DNA of 48,185 nt, taken from a virus. This document shows, one piece after another, positions 31,059 through 46,672 of this stretch; positions within the stretch are counted from its first letter, which is position 1, and the number at the start of each line of letters is the position of its first letter. The position numbers and the translations under genes were made by a program. The stretch lies in IMG/VR virus record IMGVR_UViG_3300042292_000186, positions 1 to 48,185 of that record; one strand, 5' to 3'. A model generated the notes under the pieces. The model saw nothing but the letters and a program-made list of their open reading frames with translations, ran no database searches and was not told the DNA's origin.

Positions 31059-31787
31059 ATGTTAGAAAAACCCATACACAATAATTCTAGATATTCTAAC
31101 CAAACTTTATTTTGGTCCGGGTCTGATTTTAAAGAACTATGGCAAAAGAATATGCTAATACCAGATAGTCTGAATTATTTAACTGACCGAGGTTGGTCAG
31201 ATGAACACTCAATAGAATACAAATACAATTCGCACGGGTTTCGGTGTAAAGAATTTGACAATACTCCATCTTATATAGCCATTGGGTGTAGTCACACCGA
31301 AGGAGTTGGATTACATATAGACCAAAGTTGGCCATCTAAATTGGCAAATAAATTGAATCAACCTGTTTTAAATCTTGGTGTCGGTGGTTCTAGTTTTGAT
31401 ACATGCTTTCGGTTACTAGATTTTTATATAAATTATATTAATGTGTTGGGAGTATTTCTATTAGAACCCCCTTCTAGTAGGTTTGAAATTTTTGAACATG
31501 AATGTCCGATAACTATTATGCCATCTAATGAGTTCAGTGGTGACAGGAAATTAATATACAGGTATTGGATATCTGGTGACAAAAATATTCATTATAATAT
31601 TAAAAAAAACAGGTTATCACTACAGGCATTGTGTAATATAAAACAAATTCCGTGCGTATCGTTGGAGTCAGATTCATCAGAATTTGACTATGATAAGGCA
31701 AGAGATTTAGCACATTATGGTATATTATCACACGAACATATTGCTAGTAAGTTTTTAGATAAGTATTTACATGGCAAAACCAACTGA
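31059..31787 (+). CDS. SGNH/GDSL hydrolase-like protein
   Basis: A 242-residue protein. Block I is I-A-I-G-C-S-H-T-E-G (nucleophile Ser in G-C-S), block II is N-L-G-V-G-G-S-S, and a C-terminal D-L-A-H gives the Asp/His pair. These are the parts of an SGNH esterase or acyltransferase. Such enzymes in phages may trim acetyl groups from surface glycans. It overlaps the terminase start by 17 bases, so it is translationally coupled to gp17. It looks AT-rich and may have been inserted between gp16-side genes and gp17. Confidence 0.7.
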   Translation: MLEKPIHNNSRYSNQTLFWSGSDFKELWQKNMLIPDSLNYLTDRGWSDEHSIEYKYNSHGFRCKEFDNTPSYIAIGCSHTEGVGLHIDQSWPSKLANKLNQPVLNLGVGGSSFDTCFRLLDFYINYINVLGVFLLEPPSSRFEIFEHECPITIMPSNEFSGDRKLIYRYWISGDKNIHYNIKKNRLSLQALCNIKQIPCVSLESDSSEFDYDKARDLAHYGILSHEHIASKFLDKYLHGKTN

Positions 31788-32694
31788 AAACGTTCTAGTA
31801 AAAAAGCCGCATACAGCGACAGCATTTACACAAGAACAAATTGCAGAATTTGTAAAATGTTCGGATCCTATTACAGGTCCAGAATATTTTATGAGCAATT
31901 ACTTCTATATACAGCATCCTACTCGAGGACGTATGCTGTATGCACCTTTCGAATATCAAAAACGACTAATACACAGCTACCACAACTATCGTTTTAGCAT
32001 AAGTCTAATGCCCAGGCAAACAGGTAAGTCAACTAGTGCCGCAGGTTATTTACTGTGGTATGCAATGTTTGTACCTGATAGTACTATCCTGATCGCCGCG
32101 CACAAATACACGGGTTCGCAAGAAATCATGCAGCGTATTCGCTATGCATACGAAAGTGTACCAGATCATATACGTGCTGGCGCCACTAGCTACAACAAAG
32201 GCAGTATTGACTTTGACAATGGTAGTCGTATAGTTTCAGCCACAACCACAGAAAACACAGGTCGTGGTATGTCAATATCATTACTTTACGCAGATGAGTT
32301 TGCATTTGTACGCCCTACTATAGGACGAGAATTTTGGACTTCGATTAGTCCCACACTAGCCACTGGTGGTAAATGTATTATTACTTCAACACCTAACAGT
32401 GATGAAGACCAGTTTGCTACCCTATGGAAAGGCGCTAACAAATGCTTGGATGAATATGGCAACGAAACAGAAATAGGCATAAATGGATTTAAAGCCTTTA
32501 GAAGCTATTGGAACGAACACCCAGATCGAGATGATGCCTGGGCTGCACAGCAACGGGCACAGCTAGGTGATGAACGCTTCCGACGTGAAATGGATTGTAT
32601 AACAGGTGATTCAACAATACAAATTAAATATCCAACTGGTGAACTAGCTACAGTATCAATAGTTGAACTTGAGGAAATATTGCGTAACACATAG
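31771..32694 (+). CDS. gp17: Large terminase gp17, N-terminal part fused to split-intein N-fragment
   Basis: This gene encodes 307 residues. The first 275 are the terminase ATPase domain. Walker A P-R-Q-T-G-K-S-T is at 81-88, Walker B L-L-Y-A-D-E-F at 171-177 and the coupling motif C-I-I-T-S-T-P-N at 202-209. At C276 the sequence changes to C-I-T-G-D-S-T, an intein start (block A), and continues for 32 residues to a TAG. The protein alone has no nuclease domain, which is found at 33559-34296. Protein trans-splicing with the C-part would give a TerL of about 520 residues (T4 gp17: 610). It powers DNA packaging. Confidence 0.93.
   Translation: MAKPTENVLVKKPHTATAFTQEQIAEFVKCSDPITGPEYFMSNYFYIQHPTRGRMLYAPFEYQKRLIHSYHNYRFSISLMPRQTGKSTSAAGYLLWYAMFVPDSTILIAAHKYTGSQEIMQRIRYAYESVPDHIRAGATSYNKGSIDFDNGSRIVSATTTENTGRGMSISLLYADEFAFVRPTIGREFWTSISPTLATGGKCIITSTPNSDEDQFATLWKGANKCLDEYGNETEIGINGFKAFRSYWNEHPDRDDAWAAQQRAQLGDERFRREMDCITGDSTIQIKYPTGELATVSIVELEEILRNT
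32596..32691 (+). other. Split intein N-fragment (about 32 residues)
   Basis: It starts with the splicing Cys (C276 of the N-terminase) and the block A motif C-I-T-G-D-S, and stops before block B would occur. Most split inteins break much later (around 100 residues). A break this early matches the atypical AceL-TerL intein (about 25 residues), which also sits in a phage terminase. Confidence 0.85.
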
Positions 32695-32716
32695 TTCTAG
32701 TTAGTTTGTAATGTTG

Positions 32717-32724
32717 GATAAATA
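32717..32724 (+). promoter_or_regulatory. Late promoter of the HNH gene, start on the ATG
   Basis: GATAAATA ends five bases before the ATG at 32730. In T4 the octamer spans -13 to -6, so the predicted +1 is the A of the ATG. The endonuclease can thus be transcribed separately, and leaderless. Confidence 0.6.
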
Positions 32725-32729
32725 ATAGT

Positions 32730-33248
32730 ATGAAAGAAATTACACACAAACATCATATTATTCCTAAACATGCTAGTGGCACAGACGATAGTACTAATCT
32801 AATAGAGTTAACAATAGAAGATCATGCAGAAGCACACAGGTTGCTATACGAGCAGTACAGACGATGGCAAGATAAAGTAGCGTGGCATGGATTGGCTAAA
32901 TTAACAAATGCTCATTATTTAATGCTTATTGAAAAAATGACCGGAGAAAATAATCCTATGTACGGAAAACCTGCTCCTAATAGAGGAGTTAAACGACCGG
33001 GTATAGGCGGTCGTAAGAAAGGAACTAAGTGGTCCGACGAAGAACGAGCTATTCACTCAGCGTCAAGAAGTAAAGAAGGGCATTATGATTATCTTAAAGA
33101 TCCCGCTAGGGCTAAGAAGATAAGTGATGCTAAAAAAGGTAGTAAAGGAACAACTACTGGCAGAAAATGGTACAATAATGGTACTAAACAAATATTAGCA
33201 AATGAATGTCCCGAAGGATATGTGCATGGCAGAATTAGTAAAAAATAA
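32730..33248 (+). CDS. Free-standing HNH homing endonuclease between the terminase halves
   Basis: A 172-residue protein. The N-terminal H-K-H-H-I-I-P-K-H followed by N-L-I-E-L-T and H-A-E-A-H-R-L is an HNH nuclease core. The middle has N-N-P-M-Y-G-K (NUMOD3-like DNA-binding repeats) and the end W-Y-N-N-G-T-K with P-E-G-Y...G-R, common in phage HNH proteins. It is in a different reading frame from both terminase parts and is not fused to the intein. The last 23 bases overlap the intein C-part. It probably cuts intein-less terminase genes to spread the element. Confidence 0.88.
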   Translation: MKEITHKHHIIPKHASGTDDSTNLIELTIEDHAEAHRLLYEQYRRWQDKVAWHGLAKLTNAHYLMLIEKMTGENNPMYGKPAPNRGVKRPGIGGRKKGTKWSDEERAIHSASRSKEGHYDYLKDPARAKKISDAKKGSKGTTTGRKWYNNGTKQILANECPEGYVHGRISKK

Positions 33249-33558
33249 TATAGGCTTACAAGTATTAACTGATACAGGGTATAGCGATTTCGATGGTCTT
33301 TTAATAAAAGGCCGACGTGAAACCATAATAATCACAATTGATAACTTTAAAATAGCGTGTACTCCTGACCATAAGATTTATGTTAAAGAAGATTTTGCTG
33401 TACCAGTTAGTGAATTGGTAGCCGGCGATATTATATTAACACGGGCTGGATTACGAAGTATTGCTGAAATTACTATAGGTGAAGAAGAAGAAGTTTACGA
33501 TTTACTTAATGTAGCACACAATAGACGATTTTATGCTAATAACGTATTGGTATCAAAT
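33226..33558 (+). other. Split intein C-fragment (about 111 residues)
   Basis: Contains block B (T46-P-D-H49), block F and block G ending in Asn111, followed by Cys+1. Together with the 32-residue N-part the intein is about 143 residues, mini-intein size, with no embedded endonuclease domain. Confidence 0.85.
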
Positions 33559-34296
33559 TGTGAATTTATCATCTGGGATGAGACTTTAATTAATCCTGGT
33601 CATTTAGTTGAAATGGCCGGAATTGACCCTATGGAACGGCAAGGACAGGTACGGTGGTATAAACGACCTGATCCTCAATACACTTATGTAGTGGCTCTGG
33701 ATCCTAGTCTAGGTACTGGTGGTGATCCTGCTGCAATACAGATCTTCGAATTGCCTACGTTCAAACAAATAGGTGAATGGCAGCATAATAAAACACCAGT
33801 TCAGCAACAGGTAGGCATTTTAACAGAAATTATTCGTTATTTAAATGACACAGTAAACCAAAATAATATCTATTACTCAGTTGAAAACAATACCCTAGGC
33901 GAGGCTGCGCTTATTAGTATCAGTGAAATTGGGGAAGAGAATATTAAAGGTATTTTCCTAAGTGAACCCAAACGTGCAGGTGCTACCCGTAGATATCGCA
34001 GAGGATTTAACACCACAAGTTCAACTAAAATTTCAGCATGTGCTAAACTAAAGAATTTAATTGAAAGTAAGCGCATGTCTATTGTAAGTAAACCGCTTAT
34101 ATCCGAACTAAAAACTTTTGTAGCACACGGACCTAGTTTTGCGGCCAAGCCAGGTGAAACAGATGATTTGGTCATGGCCTTGGTATTAGTGGTACGTATG
34201 GCTATGTTACTGCAGAGTTTCGACAGTCAAATTGATTTTAATATGAAAGATAGCCTCGAAGATGTAATCGAGCCTATGCCTTTCTACATTATGTAG
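33226..34296 (+). CDS. gp17: Split-intein C-fragment fused to terminase gp17 nuclease part
   Basis: The start at ATG 33226 is chosen because AAGGA lies seven bases before it; ATGs at 33202 and 33220 are possible. Residues 1-111 are the intein C-part: T-P-D-H block B at 46-49, a block F-like V-Y-D-L-L-N-V-A-H and a final V-L-V-S-N. Then C112 begins the C-extein C-E-F-I-I-W. The rest is the terminase nuclease domain. It has V-A-L-D-P-S-L-G-T-G-G-D, V-E-N-N-T-L-G-E and D-D-L-V-M-A, giving the catalytic acids that cut concatemeric DNA. The penultimate intein residue is Ser where most inteins have His. Confidence 0.93.
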   Translation: MAELVKNNIGLQVLTDTGYSDFDGLLIKGRRETIIITIDNFKIACTPDHKIYVKEDFAVPVSELVAGDIILTRAGLRSIAEITIGEEEEVYDLLNVAHNRRFYANNVLVSNCEFIIWDETLINPGHLVEMAGIDPMERQGQVRWYKRPDPQYTYVVALDPSLGTGGDPAAIQIFELPTFKQIGEWQHNKTPVQQQVGILTEIIRYLNDTVNQNNIYYSVENNTLGEAALISISEIGEENIKGIFLSEPKRAGATRRYRRGFNTTSSTKISACAKLKNLIESKRMSIVSKPLISELKTFVAHGPSFAAKPGETDDLVMALVLVVRMAMLLQSFDSQIDFNMKDSLEDVIEPMPFYIM

Positions 34297-45384: not shown

Positions 45385-45462
45385 CTCTCGTTCGCCTAGT
45401 CTGGTATGGCACTTGCTTTGGGAGCAAGAAGAACGTAGGTTCGAATCCTACACGAGAGACCA
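45385..45462 (+). tRNA. tRNA-Pro (TGG)
   Basis: Acceptor CTCTCGT pairs with ACGAGAG; anticodon stem CTTGC/GCAAG with loop TTTGGGA; T-arm with TTCGAAT. CCA is encoded. First of ten tRNAs in one array. Confidence 0.9.
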
Positions 45463-45469
45463 ATTTAAC

Positions 45470-45553
45470 GGGTGATGAGCAGCATTGGCGACTGCAGCAG
45501 ACTGTAAATCTGTGTCCTCTGGAAACTAGGTTCGACTCCTAGATCACCCACCA
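45470..45553 (+). tRNA. tRNA-Tyr (GTA)
   Basis: Acceptor GGGTGAT/ATCACCC; anticodon loop CTGTAAA; long variable arm as expected for Tyr; CCA encoded. Confidence 0.9.
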
Positions 45554-45558
45554 AGTTT

Positions 45559-45634
45559 GGGACGGTAGCTCATTTGGAAGAGCAAGATGCTTTTAACGTC
45601 GAGGTGGTGGGATCGTAGCCCACCCGTCCTACCA
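45559..45634 (+). tRNA. tRNA-Lys (TTT)
   Basis: Acceptor GGGACGG/CCGTCCT (one G-T pair); D-stem GCTC/GAGC; anticodon loop CTTTTAA; T-stem GTGGG/CCCAC. The T-loop reads ATCGTAG instead of TTCRANT, and the top pair of the anticodon stem is A-G. CCA encoded. Slightly degenerate but probably functional. Confidence 0.8.
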
Positions 45635-45636
45635 AT

Positions 45637-45711
45637 GTTGACTATAGTGTAGTGGCAACACTAAGGATTGTGATTCCTCCATCACCGGTTCGAACCCGGT
45701 TAGTCAACCCA
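45637..45711 (+). tRNA. tRNA-His (GTG)
   Basis: The extra G at position -1 is encoded and faces C73, the identity element of tRNA-His. Acceptor TTGACTA/TAGTCAA; anticodon loop TTGTGAT; CCA encoded. Confidence 0.9.
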
Positions 45712-45766
45712 TAGTTTATTATGGCCTCTATACGTAGAATACCGCAGGGTCGTCTTAGGGGTTTTT

Positions 45767-45841
45767 GGCTCGATCGTATAATGGTTATTACGTGGGATTG
45801 TCTATCCCATCATCGGAGTTCGATTCTCCGTCGAGTCGCCA
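45767..45841 (+). tRNA. tRNA-Asp (GTC)
   Basis: Acceptor GGCTCGA/TCGAGTC (one G-T pair), discriminator G; anticodon loop TTGTCTA; CCA encoded. Confidence 0.9.
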
Positions 45842-45855
45842 AGTTTAAATAGTGG

Positions 45856-45884
45856 TTGACAGCACATATCAAAACTGCTACACT
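45856..45884 (+). promoter_or_regulatory. Sigma70-type promoter inside the tRNA array
   Basis: TTGACA (45856-45861), a 17-base spacer and TACACT (45879-45884). It would transcribe the unassigned stretch up to 46060 and the second half of the tRNA array. Confidence 0.65.
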
Positions 45885-45924
45885 ATATAGATAGTAACAA
45901 ATAAGTAAATGGAAGAAAGCTGTA

Positions 45925-46060
45925 ACTGTATATATTCGAGGTTAGGAGAGTACAGCAAACCGTCCGTGGGGTAGTTGATGCCTGTGGTGAAACTCCACCG
46001 TTGAAATCAATCATGATTCTGCACATGATAACAGGCCTGTATTTGGCCGCAGAACTTATA
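45925..46060 (+). ncRNA. Unassigned foldable stretch before tRNA-Met
   Basis: No gene is seen. GTGG/CCAC (near 45982-45995) is nested inside TTGAT/ATCAA. A second unit pairs TTCTGC (46017) with GCAGAA (46049) around a GGCC/GGCC inner stem. The stretch lies behind its own promoter. It could be a small RNA or a decayed tRNA, but no tRNA cloverleaf fits. Confidence 0.25.
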
Positions 46061-46061
46061 T

Positions 46062-46136
46062 CGCGGGGTAGGGAAGTGGCAACCCGCTAGGCTCATAACC
46101 TAGAGATCGGCGGTTCGAATCCGTCCTCCGCAACCA
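46062..46136 (+). tRNA. tRNA-Met (CAT), initiator-like
   Basis: Acceptor CGCGGGG faces CTCCGCA, so C1 opposes A72, the mismatch that marks bacterial initiator tRNA. Anticodon loop is CTCATAA. The anticodon stem CTAGG/CCTAG has only two of the three G-C pairs of true initiators. CCA encoded. Confidence 0.85.
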
Positions 46137-46151
46137 ATATAGGAGAGTAGC

Positions 46152-46313
46152 ATGGCAGTGAAAAAAGCAAATCCAATGCAGTACAAAAGTGGCAAGCCAC
46201 GTTTAGGTCCATTGAACCTAACACAGTTGACCACACTGTTAGAAAAGACCAGTAAGAAAAAAGAACAAGCAAAGATTCGTGATAGAATCGCAGTAGTAGA
46301 ATCACGTAAGTAA
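46152..46313 (+). CDS. Small basic conserved protein within the tRNA array
   Basis: A 53-residue Lys-rich protein with an AGGAGA ribosome site 6 bases before the ATG. The core G-K-P-R-L-G-P-L-N-L-T-Q-L and the helix K-I-R-D-R-I-A resemble a tiny conserved protein I recall from marine T4-like phages. The strongly basic composition suggests RNA or DNA binding. It is embedded between tRNA-Met and tRNA-Glu and transcribed with them. Confidence 0.7.
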   Translation: MAVKKANPMQYKSGKPRLGPLNLTQLTTLLEKTSKKKEQAKIRDRIAVVESRK

Positions 46314-46322
46314 AAGTTTTAT

Positions 46323-46397
46323 GCAGCTATCGTCTATCGGTTAGGACATCGGGTTTTCATCCCGGCAAGCGGGGTTCGATTCCCCGTAGCTGTACCA
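46323..46397 (+). tRNA. tRNA-Glu (TTC)
   Basis: Acceptor GCAGCTA/TAGCTGT; anticodon stem TCGGG/CCCGG with loop TTTTCAT; CCA encoded. Confidence 0.88.
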
Positions 46398-46407
46398 AGT
46401 TCTAAAA

Positions 46408-46492
46408 GCCCCTTTGCGCCGAATGGGATGGCAACGGATTTGTAATCCGTCTTCGTAAGATAGAGAGTGTTCGATTCACTCAGGGGGCACCA
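46408..46492 (+). tRNA. tRNA-Thr (TGT) with a long variable arm
   Basis: Acceptor GCCCCTT/AGGGGGC; anticodon stem ACGGA/TCCGT with loop TTTGTAA (anticodon TGT). A 14-base variable region with a CTT-CGT-AAG mini-stem replaces the usual 4-5 bases, and the D-stem is 3 bp as in class II tRNAs. CCA encoded. Confidence 0.85.
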
Positions 46493-46503
46493 AGTTTTAT
46501 GTA

Positions 46504-46588
46504 GGGCAAGTGGTGGAATTGGCAGACACCCTGGTCTTAGAAGCCAGTGCCGAAAGGCGTGAGAGTTCGAGTCTCTCCTTGCCCACCA
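46504..46588 (+). tRNA. tRNA-Leu (TAG)
   Basis: Acceptor GGGCAAG/CTTGCCC; anticodon loop CTTAGAA; long variable arm typical of Leu; CCA encoded. Confidence 0.92.
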
Positions 46589-46598
46589 AAAGTTTTAT

Positions 46599-46672
46599 GC
46601 GGGATTCGTAAAATGGTATTACCTTAGTTTTCCAAACTAAAGTCGAGGGTTCGATTCCCTTATCCCGCTCCA
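46599..46672 (+). tRNA. tRNA-Gly (TCC)
   Basis: Acceptor GCGGGAT/ATCCCGC, discriminator T; anticodon loop TTTCCAA; CCA encoded. It ends one base before the 127-bp repeat begins. Confidence 0.9.

Follow-up and report, generated by a model that had tools for sequence, protein, structure and literature searches.

We report here that the large terminase gene (terL) of the virus contig IMGVR_UViG_3300042292_000186 is present at positions 31771-34296 as two genes with a third gene between them, and that the interruption is very probably a mobile cassette, in which an atypically split class 1 intein carries a homing-endonuclease gene within its split and separates the ATPase part of a T4-type terminase from its nuclease part. 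The complete record of 48,185 base pairs (bp) was examined and is referred to below as the window. The co-occurrence of a split terminase, a split intein and an intervening HNH gene, noted in a preliminary description of this DNA, is confirmed.

All parts of the locus lie on the plus strand. The N-gene (31771-32694) encodes 275 extein residues with the ATPase motifs (N-extein, 31771-32595; Terminase_6N, expect value (E) 1.9e-15; gp17, E 1.5e-31), followed from Cys1 by a 32-residue N-terminal intein part (IntN, 32596-32694 with its stop codon) of sequence CITGDSTIQIKYPTGELATVSIVELEEILRNT and then by TAG; homologous IntN sequences occur in relatives. The C-gene (33202-34296) has three in-frame ATG codons (33202, 33220 and 33226), of which we take 33226 as the start because this is the start position in relatives, giving a C-terminal intein part (IntC, 33226-33558) of 111 residues, delimited by translation, family alignment and intein matches, with TPDH as block B and a terminal Asn. 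IntC ends in Ser-Asn and the extein resumes with Cys+1-Glu-Phe and an RNase H-like nuclease domain (C-extein, 245 amino acids (aa) and a stop codon, 33559-34296; Terminase_6C, E 1.1e-5; also gp17). Coordinates and translation thus agree with the anatomy originally given for the N-gene (a Cys-started intein part of 32 residues closed by a stop codon) and for the C-gene (a 111-residue part with a TxxH block B, terminal Asn, Cys+1 and nuclease). The two exteins are in one frame, whilst the 963-nucleotide (nt) insert between them holds 15 stops. The HNH/NUMOD3 homing-endonuclease gene (172 aa, 32730-33248) does lie between the terminase halves as described, but it does not end ahead of the C-gene, since its last 23 nt (33226-33248) overlap the start of IntC in a different frame.

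The two terminase halves match a single PHROG terminase family, where their profile positions (628 and 626) adjoin, and when joined in silico the exteins align with T4 gp17 as one protein over 480 residues (E 5.8e-50), with an ATPase domain followed by an RNase H-like nuclease domain in the order of a T4-type large terminase. The interruption sits between the ATPase and nuclease parts of this alignment and, as the domain and gp17 matches bear out, the ATPase motifs are in one gene and the nuclease residues in the other. No second terL, such as the intact gp17 that would have spoken against a split terminase, was found in the 48,185-bp record. Scans with the C-gene and the N-gene returned contigs with intact terL, and in many of these relatives the gap is exactly 0 at the corresponding junction, RFRREMD/CEF. 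This precise junction, together with a ratio of non-synonymous to synonymous substitution rates (dN/dS) of approximately 0.1 in IntN, the HNH gene and IntC relative to the related locus L002, argues that the arrangement is more than chance.

The identity of the intein was assessed from its longer part and from a contiguous homologue. IntC matches gp41-1 (E 2.5e-5), the CatC construct of a TerL consensus intein (E 3.9e-5) and VidaL (E 9.8e-5); a search of genome contigs returned no relatives of IntC, and the AceL extein motif gave no hit in a text search. In the homologous locus L115 the same intein occupies one uninterrupted frame of 143 residues, which is 47% identical to the window IntC. A model of L115 built from an alignment of family members is predicted to be a Hint domain (mean predicted local distance difference test score (pLDDT) 94.4, predicted template modelling score (pTM) 0.86), with lower certainty only near the split point, and its best structural match is VidaL (TM 0.84, Z 21.3, root mean square deviation (rmsd) 1.6, 134 residues); the next matches, which are many, are all inteins. 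The splice residues of a class 1 intein, namely Cys1, a T-x-x-H block B (TPDH), the terminal Asn and Cys+1, are present in the window and conserved across the family. These data support a class 1 assignment for the window intein, with an atypical natural split (IntN 32 aa, IntC 111 aa) and a Hint fold as predicted for the contiguous homologue. A group I or II intron was also considered and rejected, as the Rfam matches in the window are to transfer RNAs (tRNAs) only and no intron RNA family was detected at the interruption.

A gene in pieces without splicing, in which terL was disrupted by an endonuclease gene and its ATPase half and nuclease half act as separate polypeptides, would fit the correspondence of the halves to separate gp17 domains, and has a precedent in phage NrdA, which is split by an HNH gene into separately working halves according to a passage of PMC2988022 citing Friedrich (2007). 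We regard this as very unlikely for the window, since intein parts with conserved splice residues under purifying selection flank the break on both sides, and since both parts form one contiguous Hint-fold intein in L115.

Scans with IntC alignments returned intein loci, and more than 40 distinct loci carry the same intein family at exactly RFRREMD/CEF. In the majority the intein is split around an endonuclease gene, which encodes either a GIY-YIG enzyme or an HNH enzyme, the latter of the window's type or of a longer one. Both HNH types and the GIY-YIG enzymes have a common C-terminal module (RPGIGGRKKGT to GRISKK), and in 31 of 34 loci the overlap of this module with IntC measures exactly 23 nt. 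At four loci, two of them near-identical, the slot holds an enzyme matching Pfam DUF7487, which we term Vsr-like from its motifs and by comparison with the loci reportedly described in 2009 by Dassa et al. The occupation of a split-intein endonuclease slot by DUF7487 proteins, a family of unknown function (L023:2961-3992, L204:3007-4023 and L217:2994-3998), suggests that DUF7487 may be a homing-endonuclease family. Contiguous inteins were found at two loci, L115 and L202, and a split intein without an endonuclease at L222. Short remnants of the endonuclease end persist in L191/L195 and L145, where blastp-short matches to the family have E 1.6e-20 and 4.5e-13. In L187 (approximately 2564-2843) IntN continues into an endonuclease C-terminal region, an apparent deletion fusion. 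The states interleave in the intein tree, where one group (92/80) unites L202 (contiguous), L204 (Vsr-type) and L205 (GIY-type); 15 changes are needed for all labels together. The window intein is a new member of its class, as had been suggested, but dozens of same-site relatives share its early split, its Ser-Asn end and its HNH partner, so that none of these traits is distinctive.

Selection and movement were assessed by comparing these loci. Between the window and L002, dN/dS is 0.08-0.13 in the N-extein, IntN, HNH gene (0.10), IntC and C-extein, indicating that all five parts are maintained. An assembly error or a decaying pseudogene, which might be suspected of a single metagenome-derived record, has next to no probability, given that dozens of contigs obtained from other samples share this architecture and that dN/dS is approximately 0.1 in every part. 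In the extein tree the window is nested among 13 intein-free terL (Shimodaira-Hasegawa approximate likelihood ratio test 97) and the presence of the intein requires approximately eight changes. The terminase exteins of L115 (contiguous), L145 (split, from another intein branch) and L135 (no intein) are 99% identical in protein and approximately 95% in DNA. Within the sets L161/L162 and L184/L185/L197, identity per 100 nt is 84-100% (mean approximately 92%) across the cassette, taken from Cys1 through the terminal Asn, whilst terL on both flanks is 55-88% identical (approximately 75%), with 0.16-0.39 synonymous differences per site in the cassette versus 0.73-0.88 outside; for L171/L173 the corresponding values are 0-0.12 and 0.52-0.72. 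These contrasts indicate that IntN, endonuclease and IntC travel as one piece bounded by the intein ends, and we consider the transfer of cassettes of this family between related phages, as units and to the exact site, to be shown by this DNA comparison.

The endonuclease module itself was found in a terL intein in 50 of 54 records and directly downstream of an intein-free terL in three more, in a search whose patterns were derived from terL-associated enzymes and could miss more distant uses. The latter three carry the window's HNH family approximately 45 nt downstream of an intact, intein-free terL (L272:3761-4288, L278:1788-2297 and L279:897-1421). Their free-standing endonucleases were considered as the ancestral state of collaborative homing, an idea that was dropped as all three fall inside one subclade of intein-borne enzymes.

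The window's HNH protein matches phrog_655 (E 3.3e-16) and Pfam NUMOD3 (22.3 bits, cut-off 20.4), and its residues H8, H9, P12, N23, H32 and H36 are invariant among 22 homologues; its structure model is of moderate quality (pLDDT 76, pTM 0.37) and a plasmid search returned no relatives of the gene. A split intein whose HNH gene is a passenger no longer driving mobility, being inactive or acting at another site, would be consistent with the relatives that retain a split intein after deletion of the endonuclease and with those that have the enzyme beside terL rather than inside it. The invariant residues, the dN/dS of 0.10 in the HNH gene and the cassette transfers among relatives with the same HNH type argue otherwise, and we judge a passenger gene to be unlikely, though a more serious alternative than the preceding two.

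The HNH gene had been credited with its own promoter. A T4-late-type motif, GATAAATA (32717-32724), is indeed present and ends just upstream of the HNH ATG; promoter function is suggested by the form of the motif and by its enrichment upstream of genes, and the motif is accordingly best termed T4-late-promoter-like. On the plus strand of the window, 11 of 32 TAAATA sites lie no more than 45 nt upstream of a gene start, where approximately one would be expected, and ATAAATA is not over-represented across the window as a whole, the enrichment being only in position relative to gene starts. Separate transcription of the HNH gene from GATAAATA is suggested on this basis.

As a mobile cassette, the locus would work as follows. 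The two terminase halves would be translated separately and IntN would dock on IntC to form the Hint fold; trans-splicing, by way of a Cys1 thioester, transesterification to Cys+1 and cyclisation of the terminal Asn, would then join RFRREMD to CEFII and yield a normal terminase of approximately 520 residues. In a co-infecting phage with an intein-free terL, the HNH protein would cleave that gene at the junction or close to it, and repair would copy IntN, endonuclease and IntC as one unit. We infer each of these steps for the window: trans-splicing of its two halves, the cut by the HNH protein in intein-free terL with its target, and copying through repair.

Several observations weigh against this reading. 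The penultimate His is absent from the whole family, which ends in Ser-Asn or Lys-Asn throughout. IntN alone gave no database match, and together with ten extein residues (42 residues in all) it gave none in the PDB, as expected at such length. The Pfam HNH match of the endonuclease (17.8 bits) is under the cut-off of 21.4. As the record covers only part of the phage genome, an intact terL could lie elsewhere in it. Finally, a recent transfer of the window's own cassette was looked for and not supported, identity to L002 being similar inside and outside the cassette; such a transfer is not visible in DNA identity as the closest relative is already approximately 20% diverged.

The contiguous intein of L115 bears on how such splits arise and are lost. 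Just before and at the start of its IntC, another reading frame encodes EGFHRGRISKK followed by a stop, corresponding to the endonuclease tail, with 10 of 11 residues as in L168. This match follows partly from conserved IntC codons, but the 12 nt upstream, which are independent of these, match as well (P 0.0015 by shuffling, for the best among five lengths). L115 is also approximately ten residues longer than L202 at the split point. L115 therefore likely lost its endonuclease through a deletion that re-joined the intein, a reading drawn from one locus and a short match. The view that contiguous inteins are simply ancestral was set aside in favour of re-fusion given the endonuclease-tail relic in L115; L202 is without a relic. 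We lean towards the view that the junction hosts a reversible cycle of split-intein homing, with one intein family, swappable endonucleases, losses that leave relics and re-joining at least once (L115). In such a cycle a constant, presumably targeting, C-terminal module would be combined with exchangeable HNH or GIY-YIG nuclease domains, or replaced by an unrelated Vsr-like enzyme, and the deletion-rejoined L115 intein would keep endonuclease-tail DNA as extra residues read in another frame.

Atypically split TerL inteins are known as AceL-TerL (25/104), GOS-TerL (37/115) and a Cat-TerL consensus (30/104) (PMC11766414). Like the window intein (32/111) they have a short IntN (25-37), a long IntC (104-115) and a phage terL host; they also share Cys1 and Cys+1, except that GOS has Ser1. 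The Cys+1-Glu+2 flank of the CatC construct 6dsl aligns to the window's C-E, but the window IntC is only distantly similar to CatC (E value above, beside those for gp41-1 and VidaL) and ends in Ser-Asn rather than His-Asn; AceL and GOS were compared by description only. The closest fold to L115, VidaL (PDB 6vgv), is 21% identical in sequence and also has a very short IntN, but its host gene is a different one. Intein plus HNH endonuclease gene also interrupt terL of Campylobacter phage IBB_35, described as intein plus intron (PMC3322345), and polB of Pseudomonas phage MIJ3, later split (PMC6892783), both again compared with the window by description only.

The likeness to AceL-TerL and to fractured-gene loci that the preliminary description drew is upheld by homology, the L115 structure model, selection and the comparative data. 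Fractured genes, as reportedly presented by Dassa and colleagues in 2009, have endonucleases between split-intein halves, including Vsr-like endonucleases, with control elements brought along. These loci resemble the window in that a split intein interrupts a conserved phage enzyme and a separate endonuclease gene stands between its halves, whilst the terL junction differs in that endonucleases of several kinds, relics and contiguous inteins occur at one site. That the arrangement is known but rare, and that the window adds a new member, is well supported; less familiar are how many states a single junction displays and that nuclease domains are exchanged while the module stays constant.

Other inteins were seen in terL. 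A second one lies by the Walker B motif (ISLLY/C ... DEFAF) in L165, L172, L188 and L202, so that these terminases would need two splicing events. The Walker B site is also where terL is split in Campylobacter phages CP30A and NCTC12673 (L225:3998-5326 with L226; L224 with L227), the C-part starting with IntC and the N-part lying approximately 25 kb away on the opposite strand. Elsewhere, the window carries T4-like genes for a tail tube, UvsX and a single-strand binding protein, and an array of ten tRNA genes (45385-46672, plus strand).

The window enlarges the small set of naturally, atypically split inteins, in which a short IntN is useful for protein labelling, and presents an essential packaging enzyme that a selfish element would have made dependent on trans-splicing. 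Among its relatives a single codon junction is found without an intein, with a contiguous one, and with a split one that holds either an endonuclease or a relic, which makes the origin of split inteins and the reversibility of splitting directly testable. If the homing cycle proposed here is correct, splitting would be a by-product of endonuclease gain, and a reversible one.
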